From a filamentous cyanobacterium CCP2 (GTDB taxonomy: Bacteria > Cyanobacteriota > Cyanobacteriia > Elainellales > Elainellaceae), in the NCBI GenBank assembly GCA_003003615.1, contig PVWD01000017.1, positions 1 through 43,855 on the forward strand: 43,855 nucleotides of DNA, given 5' to 3'. Below the pieces are notes generated by a model. That model made no database searches. It saw only the letters and a list, made by a program, of their open reading frames with translations, and was not told the DNA's origin. Shown piece after piece: positions 13,699-39,928 of the stretch (its first letter is position 1; each line of letters starts with the position of its first letter). Made by a program: the position numbers and the translations under genes.

Positions 13699-15639
<1,941 letters not shown>

Positions 15640-15840
15640 TTACGGAATACTCCTATATCTGTTTTGAAGCCGTCTCAAACTTCGGAATAGCAAATCATGT
15701 CAAAATTATAGCACAAAAGGGTTCAGGAGGGTTTTAAGGCAGTTTGAGACGAGATTCACAGCGGGGATGGATCAAGACGAAATGTTACCATTCTCTGATA
15801 TCAACAAGCTCTCATCAATCCAATAGACTCAATTTTTGAG

Positions 15841-16938
15841 GTGAATCAGAATAATACATTTGTACCAAATTCTACTGTTCCTATTCTAATTGTTATTTGT
15901 GGTGCAACGGCAACTGGAAAATCTGGTTTGGCGATCGTTCTTGCCCAAAAGCTCCAAAGCGTCATTCTCAGTGCCGATTCACGTCAGGTCTATCGCGAAT
16001 TTAATATTGGCACAGCTAAGCCAACATGGAGCGATCGACAACAAATTCCCCACTATTTAATTGACATTTGCGATCCAACCGAAACCCTCACCTTGGCTGA
16101 TTACCAGCAGCAAGCGCAGGAGTTGATTGAACAGATTATGGGGAGTCGGGAATGGGGAGTCGGGAGTCGGGCAGAACCGCAGAGAACAGGAGGCGTAGAT
16201 TGGACTGAAACTGCTCAATCTCCAGACTGGGCTATCTCCTACCCTTCCCCCATTCCTTGTACGGACGAGAAATTTCACGCCTCTACCCCACTCCCCCTCC
16301 TCGTCGGCGGCACCGGACTTTACATTAAATCGATCGTCCGAGGGTTACGCATCCCTAGAGTGGCTCCTCAGCCAGAACTGCGATCGCAATTGCAGGGAAT
16401 GGGACAGTCTTACTGTTATGCTCTGTTGCAGCAAGTTGATGCGGCGGCAGTTCAGAAAATTCATCCGAATGATCAGGTGCGAACGTTGCGGGCATTAGAG
16501 GTGTTTTACGTGACGGGTCGGCCCATTTCGCAGCAGCAGGGAGAATGTCCGCCGAAGTATCCAATTCTTCAGATTGGGCTAGATGGTTCACCTGATGCCC
16601 TAGCGCAACGAATCAAGAAACGAACCGCCCAAATGATTGCTGACGGTTTTGTGGAAGAGGTAGAGCAGCTTTGCCAGAAATATGGAGCAGATCTGCCGTT
16701 GCTGAATACGTTGGGCTATCAGGAAATCAAACACTTTTTGGCTGGGAAAGTTTCCCTTCCTGAAGCAGAAGCCTCGATCGTTTTGCACACGCGCCAGTTT
16801 GCTAAACAGCAGCGCACCTGGTTTCGGGCTGATCCAACGATCGAATGGTTTGATGCGGATGCCCCCGATTTGGTTGAGCAGGTCTGGAACCGTATTCAAG
16901 CGGTGGTAGAAGTAGAAAGGGCTAGAAACAGGGGATAG
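15841..16938 (+). CDS. miaA: tRNA dimethylallyltransferase with an internal insertion
   Basis: MiaA transfers a dimethylallyl group to A37 of tRNAs that read UNN codons. The start is GTG. The P-loop is GATATGKSGLA (21-31), followed by SADSRQVYREFNIGTAKPT and DICDP; LVGGTGLYIKSI (154-165) and NTLGYQEI near the end are also diagnostic. The protein is 365 residues, against about 300 for the family, because roughly residues 100 to 149, between the QELIEQI helix and the LPLLVGGTG strand, are extra. The extra part is encoded by a G-rich heptamer tract and a C-rich tract, i.e. repeat DNA (see the repeat entry at 16140). The frame is kept and catalytic motifs are intact, so the enzyme may still work. 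Confidence 0.93.
   Translation: MNQNNTFVPNSTVPILIVICGATATGKSGLAIVLAQKLQSVILSADSRQVYREFNIGTAKPTWSDRQQIPHYLIDICDPTETLTLADYQQQAQELIEQIMGSREWGVGSRAEPQRTGGVDWTETAQSPDWAISYPSPIPCTDEKFHASTPLPLLVGGTGLYIKSIVRGLRIPRVAPQPELRSQLQGMGQSYCYALLQQVDAAAVQKIHPNDQVRTLRALEVFYVTGRPISQQQGECPPKYPILQIGLDGSPDALAQRIKKRTAQMIADGFVEEVEQLCQKYGADLPLLNTLGYQEIKHFLAGKVSLPEAEASIVLHTRQFAKQQRTWFRADPTIEWFDADAPDLVEQVWNRIQAVVEVERARNRG
16140..16302. repeat. heptamer-flanked repeat insertion inside miaA
   Basis: From 16140, units of seven bases run GGGGAGT, CGGGAAT, GGGGAGT, CGGGAGT. At the other end (about 16247-16302) there are C-rich units such as CCCCATT and CCCCACT and an imperfect palindrome centred on GAAATTTC at 16269-16276. 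The same paired G-rich/C-rich heptamer layout occurs in the intergenic region at 32428-32684, which supports a repeat-derived insertion. Confidence 0.65.
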
Positions 16939-17053
16939 TGTTGCTTCGATGCATTGCTGTACCAATCGCTATACTCAAAACAACTGCTCTTGAAGCAATC
17001 TATGCTTAAAGACTCCCACCTTTAGAGACTCCCACCCACTTTCAATCTCATCT

Positions 17054-18286
17054 ATGGAACTGATTTGGTGGATTCAGACGTTCTTCCCGCCTGTTTTAGT
17101 TGCTGGGATTTGTCCGCTCATTATCACTGGCTGTTTGCTGCTGGCATTCGGCGAGTGGCTCTATCCCCAGTGGCGATCGGCTGGGATAATCTATCTGCTT
17201 TCTGTATTTTCGGTTCCTTGGATCAGTCAAGTGTCCAGGTTGGATTTGCGGGAGTCGGCGATCGTGGGTGGTATTTTGGTTCCGGCAGCCTGCGGTTTTT
17301 TGCTGGTGATGAATGGCAGTATGCGGACGTTGAATGCGCCCCGTCGTAACCCAAGCCCTTCCCAGCCAAGCAAATTACTCCACTTTTACCATCTGCATTC
17401 CCAGCATTCCCTGTTTGCTCGAATGATGAAGCCTGCTCAGGCGTTGGTTGGAGGAGCTGTCGGCGGCATTTTAGGAATGGTGTTCGGGTTGCTGTTTAGC
17501 CTGTTGGTTTTGGCCTTGCTTTCCTTGCTAGCCCTGTTGCCCATTCATTATTCAACCGGGAATATCAACGATCATTTCATTACGGCGGTACTGGATGCAG
17601 GCATTTACACCTTTGCCAGTTTGGGCTTTGTGTTGGGTGTGGCGATCGGGTTACGGCTCTTAAACTTACAGAGATTGCATCAGCGAGTGATGATTAGTGC
17701 AGTGATTTGTAGTGCGCTGATGATGCGAACCGTGCGGAACATTTTCCAGATTCCGTATTTGTCTCGACGGAGCATGTTTCAAGTCGCTGAACGCCATCAC
17801 ACATTAATGCTGCGTTGCCGAACGTATCGATCGTCGGATTGGGTATGGATGGGTTTTAATAGCTTATACGATGCCTTTGCGCTGTTGGTGTTGGGAATTG
17901 CCCTCGTGCGGGGAACGTGGACAACGTTAGGCTTGGGGGTTGGAGTCATTGTAGTGATTGGCATTCTGTGGACTTGGTATAGCCTGACGCGATTATTAAA
18001 CTACACAACGATCGCCCTGAGTTTGACGACGCTAAGCCGTTGGGATGCACCATTATTTTCCCCCAAATTTCCTATCCAATTACCACTGCAACAGATTGCA
18101 ACCATCACAGCTAATGTCGCTGTTCAGCCCAAGTTCAAAACTCCTTTTGGTTCGCCAGAATACCAGGTTTGTGTGGTGATGATGAATGGTAAACGTATTC
18201 CTTTACTGCGGCATTTGGAACAGTGGGAAGAGGCAATCTTTGTGGAAGAAACGATCGAAAAATTTTTGTCAAACTACATTCGGTAA
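17054..18286 (+). CDS. polytopic membrane protein, function unknown
   Basis: I do not recognise this 410-residue protein. It has about seven hydrophobic segments: near residues 10-35, 42-60, 68-85, a pair around 130-170 with GGAVGGILGMVFGLLFSLLVLALLSLLALLP, another at 180-205, and a pair at 270-315. A soluble C-terminal part of about 90 residues (PLQQIATITANVAVQPKFKTPFGSPEYQVCVVMMNGKRIPLL) looks like a small beta-rich, PH-like domain that follows a membrane region in some bacterial proteins. It stands alone 115 bp after miaA and converges with the mechanosensitive-channel gene. The coding call is firm because of the consistent membrane pattern; the role is unknown. Confidence 0.75.
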   Translation: MELIWWIQTFFPPVLVAGICPLIITGCLLLAFGEWLYPQWRSAGIIYLLSVFSVPWISQVSRLDLRESAIVGGILVPAACGFLLVMNGSMRTLNAPRRNPSPSQPSKLLHFYHLHSQHSLFARMMKPAQALVGGAVGGILGMVFGLLFSLLVLALLSLLALLPIHYSTGNINDHFITAVLDAGIYTFASLGFVLGVAIGLRLLNLQRLHQRVMISAVICSALMMRTVRNIFQIPYLSRRSMFQVAERHHTLMLRCRTYRSSDWVWMGFNSLYDAFALLVLGIALVRGTWTTLGLGVGVIVVIGILWTWYSLTRLLNYTTIALSLTTLSRWDAPLFSPKFPIQLPLQQIATITANVAVQPKFKTPFGSPEYQVCVVMMNGKRIPLLRHLEQWEEAIFVEETIEKFLSNYIR

Positions 18287-32405: not shown

Positions 32406-32427
32406 AGAGAGAGGAGGGGGTAGAGAA

Positions 32428-32455
32428 GGGAGTAGGGAGTGGGGAGTAGGGAGTA
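32428..32455 (+). repeat. G-rich heptamer tract
   Basis: Four units of seven bases: GGGAGTA, GGGAGTG, GGGAGTA, GGGAGTA. It starts 23 bp after the binding-protein gene and is complementary in pattern to the C-rich heptamer tract at 32643. Confidence 0.75.
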
Positions 32456-32471
32456 GAGAAGGGAAACTCGG

Positions 32472-32560
32472 AGTGTGCCACAACTCTTGTAGGATGGGCA
32501 TCTTGTCTGTCCTGAAGTGTGCCACAACTCTTGTGGGATGGGCATCTTGCCCGTCCCGAT
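32472..32560 (+). repeat. 44-bp tandem duplication carrying REP-like copies 7 and 8
   Basis: The unit beginning AGTGTGCCAC at 32472 repeats at 32516. Each contains a REP-like core, at 32492-32512 (arms GGATGGGCA, TGTCTGTCC) and 32536-32556 (arms GGATGGGCA, TGCCCGTCC). Both pair at all nine positions when G-U is allowed. Confidence 0.8.
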
Positions 32561-32642
32561 CTGAAAGGCAAAATTCCATTCCGGCACTACAAACAAATCA
32601 GCAAATCAGCCTTCAATCTTCCAGTCACCGCTACATCAATTT

Positions 32643-32684
32643 CCCCATTCCCCATTCCCCACTCCCTACTCCCCACTCCCCATT
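32643..32684 (+). repeat. C-rich heptamer tract
   Basis: Six units: CCCCATT twice, CCCCACT, CCCTACT, CCCCACT, CCCCATT. The tract abuts the stop of the R3H ATPase gene at 32687. With the G-rich tract at 32428 it brackets about 190 bp that contain the REP-like pair. Confidence 0.75.
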
Positions 32685-32686
32685 CC

Positions 32687-34573
32687 TCACGCTGGATAAA
32701 TCCGAATGCGTCGATTCGGCTCTTCCCCAAAGCTGGCAGACTTTAGGCGATAATGCTCCACCAATTCATGCTGCATCTTGCGAACCTTCGCCGATCGCGG
32801 CAATAACTCAACGGGTTGTCCCTTTGGAATCACGATTTGCTCAACGGCTAACCGAGCCTCTTCAAGGGCTTCAATTTCATCCTCATCGGCATCGCGGTAA
32901 AACAGGGTAAGGTCGGCAGGTTCTCCGGCTCCGCCTGCATCCATTCGTAGCATTCGCTGGAGGGCACGGATCAGTTGAGGCAGGCTATTCGACTTAACAG
33001 GATGAATCGGTAGCTGTCGATTTTTTGCCAAGAGTCGCAGCTTAGAATGGTTTTTAATGTGCGATCGAAGGGCCAGCACCGCATCGGCACTATCAATATC
33101 CTTCGTCAGCACTACAGGCAAATTCATCGTTTGAATCACCTGCTCTAGCTGATGCCGACTGATGGCATAAGGGTAAACGTGAAGCGGTAAATCCTCACCG
33201 TTTGGTCCCGTCATTGGAGCTTCCCCCATATCCTCCATCGCATACGAGTCTGCCATTGAGTCATTCAGGAGTTGGTCAAACTGCTGCCGCTCAGACAAGG
33301 GTTCTGCCTTGGGTACAGGTTCCAACGATGCCGCTCCACCCAGATCTGTACGCTTGTAAGAGGGTAGAACAGGCAACTGCCCAGACGCTCTCCAACCGCC
33401 TCGTGACGCACTCCTTGAAAGCCCAGAGGGAGCCGTACCAAAGGGAAGCTGCCCGGTAGCAGGCTGGGTCTTGCTGGGTTCTTGTGTAATTACCACATCA
33501 CCCTTATCATTAACAGTTCGCACCTGCGGGTTGGGTTCGCGTCCCCGCAGCAGGGTATCAACCGTTTCAGACACATCCTGATGCACCACCCACTTTTGCC
33601 GTTCCAGCATTTCCACTGCAATATCAAAGGTGGGCGGAGCTTTGCGCTCTAGAACGCTTTTCTGGCTGCCCCGCCGACGGGCTTCTTCATCTCCCAGCGT
33701 CACCGACTGAATGCCGCCCACCAAATCAGAGAGCGTTGGGTTTTTAATCAGGTTTTCAATCCGATTACCGTGAGCCGTGCCAACAAGCTGCACACCCCGT
33801 TCTGCGATCGTCCGAGCCGCTAGAGCTTCCAGTTCCGTCCCAATTTCATCAATGACAATCACTTCTGGCATGTGGTTTTCCACTGCCTCAATCATCACCT
33901 GATGCTGAAGTTCAGGGCGTGCGACCTGCATTCGTCTTGCCCGACCGATCGCCGGATGGGGAATATCACCATCCCCTGCAATTTCATTGGAAGTGTCGAT
34001 GATCACAACCCGCTTGTCTAGCTCATTAGCCAGGACTCTGGCAATTTCTCTTAGGGCAGTGGTTTTGCCAACTCCTGGACGACCCAGCATGAGAATGGAG
34101 CGACCCGTTTCCACTAAATCCCGAATCATGTCGATCGTGCCAAAAATAGCGCGGCCCACACGACAGGTTAATCCAATCACTTCGCCAGAGCGGTTGCGGA
34201 GGGCACTAATTCGGTGTAAAGTGCGTTCGATGCCAGCACGGTTGTCTCCGCTAAAGATACCGACCCGTTCAACGCAGTGTTGCAAGTCTTCTTTGGAAAC
34301 TGGGGTCTCTGATAGATACTTGGAACCATCCGGAAAACGCGCTTCTGGAAAGCGTCCCAAGTCTAAAACCACTTCAATTAAACGATTGCGATCGGGATGA
34401 TGCTCTAGTATTTCGCGGATAGATTCCGGCAAAATTTTCAGTAGTTGATTGAGGTCATCAGTGCTTTGCACAGGCATAGGAGATAATGTTTCAGATGCGG
34501 TAGACCCAGATGGCTCAGGAAATTCAAACTGACTAGAAGAGGGATTGGAAGGAGTATTACGGTACGATGTCAT
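32687..34573 (-). CDS. ycf45: AAA ATPase with C-terminal R3H domain (Ycf45 family)
   Basis: The 628-residue protein combines a SpoIIIAA-like AAA ATPase with a nucleic-acid binding R3H domain. Walker A is GRPGVGKTT (164-172), Walker [12 protein letters not shown] (237-247) and sensor-like VGTAHGN follows. A Pro/Ser-rich linker of about 80 residues leads to a region with [42 protein letters not shown]. The C-terminal R3H pattern is [36 protein letters not shown]. The family is conserved in cyanobacteria and some algal plastids (Ycf45); its role is unknown, and a function in RNA or DNA handling is inferred from R3H. It lies 95 bp after ldpA on the same strand. Confidence 0.88.
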
Positions 34574-39811: not shown

Positions 39812-39928
39812 TTCAATTTTGGGTTTTAGATTCCTGATTCTGGGTTGATCGCTTGATGAAGCCATCCAAAATCCAAAGTCCAAAATCCAAAATCTAAAAT
39901 TCAATTGCTTTAGAGGTTAGTTAACGTC
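39812..39928 (+). repeat. heptamer tract and imperfect inverted repeat between rplB and rpsS
   Basis: Five seven-base units run from 39866 to 39900: CCAAAAT, CCAAAGT, CCAAAAT, CCAAAAT, CTAAAAT. The start of the spacer, from ATTCAATTTTGGG at 39811, is partly complementary to the tract and its ATTCAATTG end, so the spacer could fold into an imperfect hairpin within the operon mRNA. Confidence 0.75.

Follow-up and report, generated by a model that had tools for sequence, protein, structure and literature searches.

How does a conserved tRNA-modifying enzyme come to hold a long run of residues whose DNA resembles the intergenic repeats of the same genome? The question arose from the initial annotation of miaA in a 43,855-nt stretch of contig PVWD01000017.1 from the filamentous cyanobacterium CCP2 (here called the window, meaning the whole stretch analyzed), which proposed that repeat DNA had been domesticated there as coding sequence. 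The features on which the answer turns are as follows, with the evidence for each in parentheses.

15841 to 16938, plus strand: miaA, tRNA (adenosine(37)-N6)-dimethylallyltransferase, 365 amino acids, GTG start (TIGR00174, PF01715, PDB 2qgn and 2zm5)
16135 to 16290, plus strand: extra in-frame segment, residues 99 to 150 (52 residues, where the median of 127 copies is 7; 2qgn alignment break)
16140 to 16171, plus strand: G-rich heptamer array GGGGAGT/CGGGAAT/GGGGAGT/CGGGAGT/CGGG (repeat scans, 14-mer genome counts)
16144 to 16287, plus strand: codons of residues 102 to 149, with pLDDT below 50 (AlphaFold2)
16239 to 16257, plus strand: C-rich tract, a partial complement of the G-rich part (9 nt exact, 16149 to 16157 with 16248 to 16256)
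16260 to 16285, plus strand: degenerate copy, with 3 mismatches, of a 26-bp palindrome searched as TAGAGACGNGAAATTTCNCGTCTCTA (genome search, local DNA matches)
16286 to 16303, plus strand: C-rich 3' end that continues into the native PLLV codons (arms 16147 to 16164 and 16286 to 16303, 78% complementary)
32411 to 32690, no strand assigned: intergenic element made up of G-rich heptamers, a 44-bp tandem repeat, and C-rich heptamers at 32639 to 32689 (repeat scans)

The protein is a member of the MiaA family, matching TIGR00174 in a profile search at 305.9 bits against a curated cutoff of 148.65 and carrying the PF01715 IPPT domain. Foldseek found its model closest to the MiaA structures 2zm5 and 3foz, with nothing noteworthy in the search for likeness outside MiaA. 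Residue 98 (LIEQI) and residue 151 (LPLLVGGTG) stand 156 nt, or 52 residues, apart, whereas the median loop across 127 copies is 21 nt, or seven residues, and 85 of the 127 have at most 30 nt (2 to 10 residues). About 45 residues are therefore extra, against the roughly 50 first described between the QELIEQI helix and LPLLVGGTG. The reading frame passes through the segment uninterrupted, and the flanks on both sides encode MiaA. The alignment with Bacillus MiaA (2qgn) breaks at query residues 99 to 145, and AlphaFold2 gives pLDDT below 50 to residues 102 to 149, between a helix (85 to 101) and a strand (153 to 156), although, with 22 sequences as input, the low values may partly reflect missing homologous rows. 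Residues 1 to 13 and 21 to 25 likewise fall below 50. The insert is apparently a harmless floppy loop.

Parts of the insert DNA are repeat DNA. G-rich heptamers come first, followed by unique sequence and C-rich tracts, with the palindrome near the end. The array amounts to about 4.5 imperfect units, and the 14-mer ATGGGGAGTCGGGA occurs twice in identical form, at 16138 and 16152, so that the description of the start as GGGGAGT/CGGGAGT heptamers holds. That of the end as C-rich heptamers holds in part: the tracts are C-rich, but array scans detected no heptamer array in the 3' part of the insert, and the last tract runs into native codons. Four G-runs with loops of 1 to 7 nt make up a putative G-quadruplex motif. 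An RNA hairpin reading was rejected, as the segment folds no better than shuffled sequence (z of +0.66; 156 of 200 shuffles at least equally good), and the sole Rfam hit within 15500 to 17200 lay on the other strand and scored 15.3 bits, where the gathering score is 45.

The same components are scattered over the genome. With at most one mismatch, the 14-mer GGGGAGTCGGGAGT is found 159 + 133 times, against 7 + 7 for the reversed control, and G-rich heptamers here thus occur both as tandem 7-nt units and in many dispersed copies. Within the window, GGGGAGTNGGGAGT has seven matches at up to one mismatch, two in the miaA insert and five in the element near 32.4 kb; shuffles give 0.00. The GAAATTTC palindrome reported in the insert is indeed there: at up to 3 mismatches the 26-bp sequence has 31 genome places and none in the control, the miaA copy being among them at the limit of 3. 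Ten of these 31 loci were examined. Directly upstream of the palindrome, G-rich heptamers stand in L223 and L230 and, judged by eye, in L226; directly downstream, L222 and L224 have C-rich tracts, again by eye. The best genome matches of the insert core, one of 29 nt at 90% identity and one of 24 nt at 96%, both fall in the palindrome; no full-length parent of the insert was found in its genome, the 125-nt core matching over just 21 to 43 nt. Intergenic-type repeat DNA is thus now coding sequence in a conserved tRNA-modifying enzyme, as had been proposed.

The proposed identity of architecture with the intergenic element at 32428 was borne out at the ends and not in the middle. The element has G-rich and C-rich heptamer ends with arms of 38 nt that are 82% complementary, but a 44-bp tandem repeat forms its core, which differs from that of the miaA insert, and the GAAATTTC palindrome was not seen within it. 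The 44-bp unit stands in two tandem copies at 32472 to 32559, flanked by heptamer arrays. Considered as possible terminal inverted repeats of a MITE-like mobile element, arms of opposite skew appear in a fixed order, G-rich first, in all five pairs at most 300 nt apart within 364 kb (of which 4.6 kb entered the count twice) and in all seven miaA inserts with both arms, four of these seven coming from one genus; many arrays stand alone, without a partner arm. A further array in the window, at 39863 to 39901, has the unit AAAATCC, and at four loci (L033, L035, L049, L053) GGGCATCTTGCCCG stretches similar to the 44-bp repeat adjoin heptamers by eye. Ten contigs of the window's draft genome (C2, C5, C13, C15, C54, C87, C110, C115, C121, and C129 of G000) have a heptamer array at their beginning or end, or a few bases away from it, and the draft thus tends to break at such repeats.

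To place the insert among relatives, we compared the loop across miaA loci, of which 142 were collected and 127 counted after 4 without the N-terminal half and 11 duplicates were dropped. These comprise 33 copies from the window's family (f1), 40 from f16, 30 from f13, 8 from other families, and 16 from named contigs. Coverage is nearly complete for f1, with 33 of its 36 genomes, and for f16, with 40 of 42, but the set is no random sample: for 24 of the 127 copies the source was a best-hit list, a hand-picked genome, or a named contig, a choice that favors long loops. The loop varies from 6 to 249 nt and reaches at least 54 nt in 35 copies; in f13, all 30 loci have 45 nt or less. Among the 35 long loops the frame is conserved, with a length that is a multiple of three in 33 and a stop in none, against one third expected without constraint, related copies not being independent. 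The two exceptions belong to different genera. In G303 (L105, three contigs) the MiaA halves lie in different frames across a 212-nt repeat, and in G010 (L024, a draft) across 103 nt, where the array has an 8-nt unit by eye; each may be a real inactivation or a sequence error.

Heptamer arrays recur at this site. They are present in 18 of the 35 long loops, against a shuffle mean of 0.57, and are found in 12 of 40 f16 copies, 4 of 33 f1 copies, one f25 copy, and one named metagenome-assembled genome (Rivularia sp. MS3, with a weak array), thus spanning 11 labeled genera of three families besides the latter. An early period-7 criterion scored 15 copies but not the insert of the window itself, and a criterion based on local arrays is used here in its place. 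The units, read by eye, vary (GGGAGTC, GGAGGCA, GGATGAA, AAAATCC, CACCCCA, and others), and no array was detected in the remaining 17 long loops, which probably represent decayed captures. The window's insert shares with the other 126 loops a longest common run of 17 nt, in the heptamers, or of 5 residues. Conservation of the same segment in distant MiaA proteins, which the initial annotation had named as evidence against its reading, is accordingly not what the comparison found. Parsimony requires at least 6 changes for the strict heptamer state (the window's copy left out) and 22 for the long-loop state, which gives only a rough count of independent captures, since the tree is poorly resolved, with 51 of its 124 inner branches open.

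Two comparisons bear on how such loops arise. G059 and G073, which carry the same genus label, are 95.4% identical over 500 nt of one flank and 90.3% over 702 nt of the other, yet their loops measure 18 and 216 nt, a difference of 198 nt. The longer one opens with GGATGAA-type units and closes with TTCATCC-type units. Alignment of the pair suggests a recent gain, with G059 retaining what appears to be the short-loop sister allele; no target-site duplication was seen by eye in this alignment, in which the repeat edges align ambiguously. With at most 40 candidates scored per genome, the miaA insert of G264, in genus g70, has at least 59 match places in its own genome and at least 44 to 54 in each of six congeners; over eight f16 genomes, its own among them, the counts are at least 44 to 59 apiece, and heptamers alone account for part of the matches. 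Elsewhere it has at least one match in G047 (f13) and at least 59 in the window's genome. Its best match away from miaA among the matches listed is 85% over 95 nt and lies outside the G-rich array, which indicates that this part of the insert, too, is a dispersed repeat. Array arms differ between species of g70. Six other searched members of the genus have loops of 81 to 249 nt. The remaining one, G165, yielded no MiaA protein match although it is 99% complete, through loss or a data gap; a search with a longer miaA stretch of G264 gave at least 56 matches there, those listed all falling in the insert part (40 of 314 candidates scored).

In-frame arrays are not confined to miaA. Among 30 exact 14-mer hits surveyed in the window's genome, arrays lie in frame in ORFs with family matches to ChlH, NadB, RadA, and RsmE, as well as in an SNF2-type helicase, a glycoside hydrolase 116, and two ABC proteins, one of which sits where a contig ends. 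The survey 14-mer is a stop-free variant, so that the intragenic share among its hits is biased upward. A periodicity survey free of that pattern, with 20 of its 41 sources chosen around 14-mer hits, added in-frame arrays in HtpG, a pyridoxal-dependent decarboxylase, and a further ABC protein. The excess over profile length is 53 positions in RadA, 19 in RsmE, and just 2 in NadB (against NF005636). RadA, the one orthologue loop compared outside miaA, varies from 45 to 198 nt across relatives, always in multiples of three (29 of 30 loci, one lacking the N-terminal half), with period-7 identity above 0.4 in five of the 29 (L231, L235, L238, L240, L254); L240 hardly exceeds other periods, and L254 has just 45 nt. 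The idea of miaA as a unique target was rejected on these grounds, the RadA loop being variable too and arrays being present in other genes. A ThiO-ThiG fusion linker includes C-rich heptamers, SPTPHSPLPTPD (L151:2425-4047, contig C73), and one glycoside hydrolase 116 protein has in-frame arrays at two separate sites (L155:8142-10469, contig C99). Of 62 ORF pairs beside arrays, ten were scanned for families on both sides and an eleventh (L040) on one side; no single gene cut by an array was found in the scanned pairs, three of the ten having one side without a family hit. At L158, glycosyltransferases stand on either side of the array, each with its own domain set.

A property of the heptamers themselves may help to explain this. 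Seven and three have no common factor, and a 7-nt unit therefore reads as one seven-residue peptide in all three frames, as all 12 units tried confirmed. The C-rich strand is open in all frames in 50 of 59 arrays of the window's genome, the G-rich strand, which is the sense strand in the window's miaA, in 21 of 59, with a stop in 3 of the 12 units. Such arrays would thus be well suited to capture, giving one peptide whatever the frame and, on the C-rich strand, mostly no stop.

Taken together, these data make it very probable that dispersed repeat DNA has been captured repeatedly by a permissive MiaA loop and retained when in frame. On this account the extra segment would be a decayed composite of dispersed repeats, a heptamer array and a 26-bp palindrome, that entered the loop between the helix and the strand preceding the LLVGGTG motif. 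A repeat may have been copied in, after which its heptamer arms slipped and substitutions eroded it. The segment would persist because its length keeps the frame, it contains no stop, and the loop tolerates it. The insert-bearing MiaA is probably made and active, and the insert is presumably neutral.

An unlikely alternative is that no element was inserted and that the loop grew as short G-rich and C-rich runs slipped in place. The short loop of G002 can, by eye, already house about two heptamer units, and the divergence of arms within g70 fits local growth as well. Slippage does not provide the dispersed palindrome of the window's insert, however, or the repeat outside the G-rich array in G264. 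In short-loop alleles, moreover, the switch from purine to pyrimidine at the site is weak (mean of 0.10, median rank of 0.29, 82 copies), and a native seed there was rejected for this reason.

That the insert is domesticated, with a role in RNA contact, regulation, or partner binding that is under selection, is where we depart from the initial annotation, and we consider it improbable. The kept frame and the recurrence of long loops in several genera would agree with a function. Against this, no other copy shares more of the insert sequence than short heptamer stretches, the loop is occupied elsewhere by different repeats or by unique sequence, most copies do with 2 to 10 residues, the segment is predicted with low confidence, and the same type of array sits in unrelated, conserved genes. 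Tolerated passenger DNA fits better than domestication.

Phase variation, in which changes in unit number would shift the frame and switch tRNA modification off and on, we hold to be highly improbable. In the heptamer contingency loci of pathogens the unit length is no multiple of three, as here, but 33 of the 35 long miaA loops are in frame, one genome per species having been compared. The two out-of-frame loops, both shifted in their repeat part, and the insert-rich genus member lacking a MiaA match (G165) speak for switching, yet sequence errors at repeats could account for the former, and the window's own array is short and imperfect. Rehm et al. deemed phase variation unlikely for such repeats generally (PMC4692102). 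A broader picture, in which the MiaA loop is a long-lived landing site whose clean arrays allow frame-switching by slippage, so that repeat turnover would set the level of i6A and sometimes lead to gene loss, also strikes us as improbable. Misassembly or misbinning of repeat DNA into miaA is very improbable: several draft contigs begin or end in heptamer arrays, but the frame is kept without a stop between two MiaA-encoding flanks, and inserts with heptamer arrays occupy the same site in the single-contig genomes G159 and G171.

Repeated capture has a parallel in another phylum. The Rickettsia palindromic elements (RPEs) are dispersed repeats that lie in intergenic DNA and also, in frame, within 19 reading frames of conserved genes; they measure 105 to 146 bp with a long stem-loop predicted, and an RPE-bearing guanylate kinase is translated and active, with changed substrate affinity (PMC2229807). 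The heptamer arrays of the window's genome likewise occur in frame inside conserved genes, and by analogy the miaA inserts would work as RPEs do. They lack two RPE-defining features, though: the inserts are heterogeneous, with no shared unit of about 100 to 150 bp found (matches of 21 to 43 nt), and the window's copy has no stable long stem-loop. We do not assign the inserts to the RPE family, since tests for a full-length unit common to the copies and for a stable stem-loop both came out negative.

Short tandemly repeated repetitive (STRR) sequences and small dispersed repeats of cyanobacteria, short heptamers among them, reportedly lie between genes and inside RNA genes, and the accounts given by Mazel in 1990, Vioque in 1997, and Elhai in 2008 reportedly deal with RNA genes and with DNA between genes, not with the loop of a protein. 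Closer in kind are the G-rich heptamers GGGGA(C/T)T of Nostoc PCC 7120, of which 68% of 89 are intergenic, with few paired inverted repeats, and the Xanthomonas G-rich heptamer repeat GGGAATC (PMC4692102); some of the Nostoc heptamers must then lie in or touch genes. The arrays here resemble both in their tandem G-rich 7-nt units dispersed over the genome, and their unit, GGGGAGT/CGGGAGT, has the same GGGGANT pattern as that of Nostoc and differs at the sixth base. The word "miaA" is absent from that paper, its accessible part contains no description of repeated capture at one site, and we found no report of this insert, or of repeated capture at one MiaA site, in the openly licensed literature.

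The finding is that, at a single site in a conserved enzyme, noncoding repeat DNA has in all probability become part of the protein again and again. With one seven-residue peptide in all frames, heptamer repeats would be a ready source of extra loops, and cyanobacteria may be viewed as natural experiments on what a conserved protein tolerates, with the short-loop sister allele of G059 available for comparison. The case also cautions against taking such loops as a matter of course for domains or for lineage markers.
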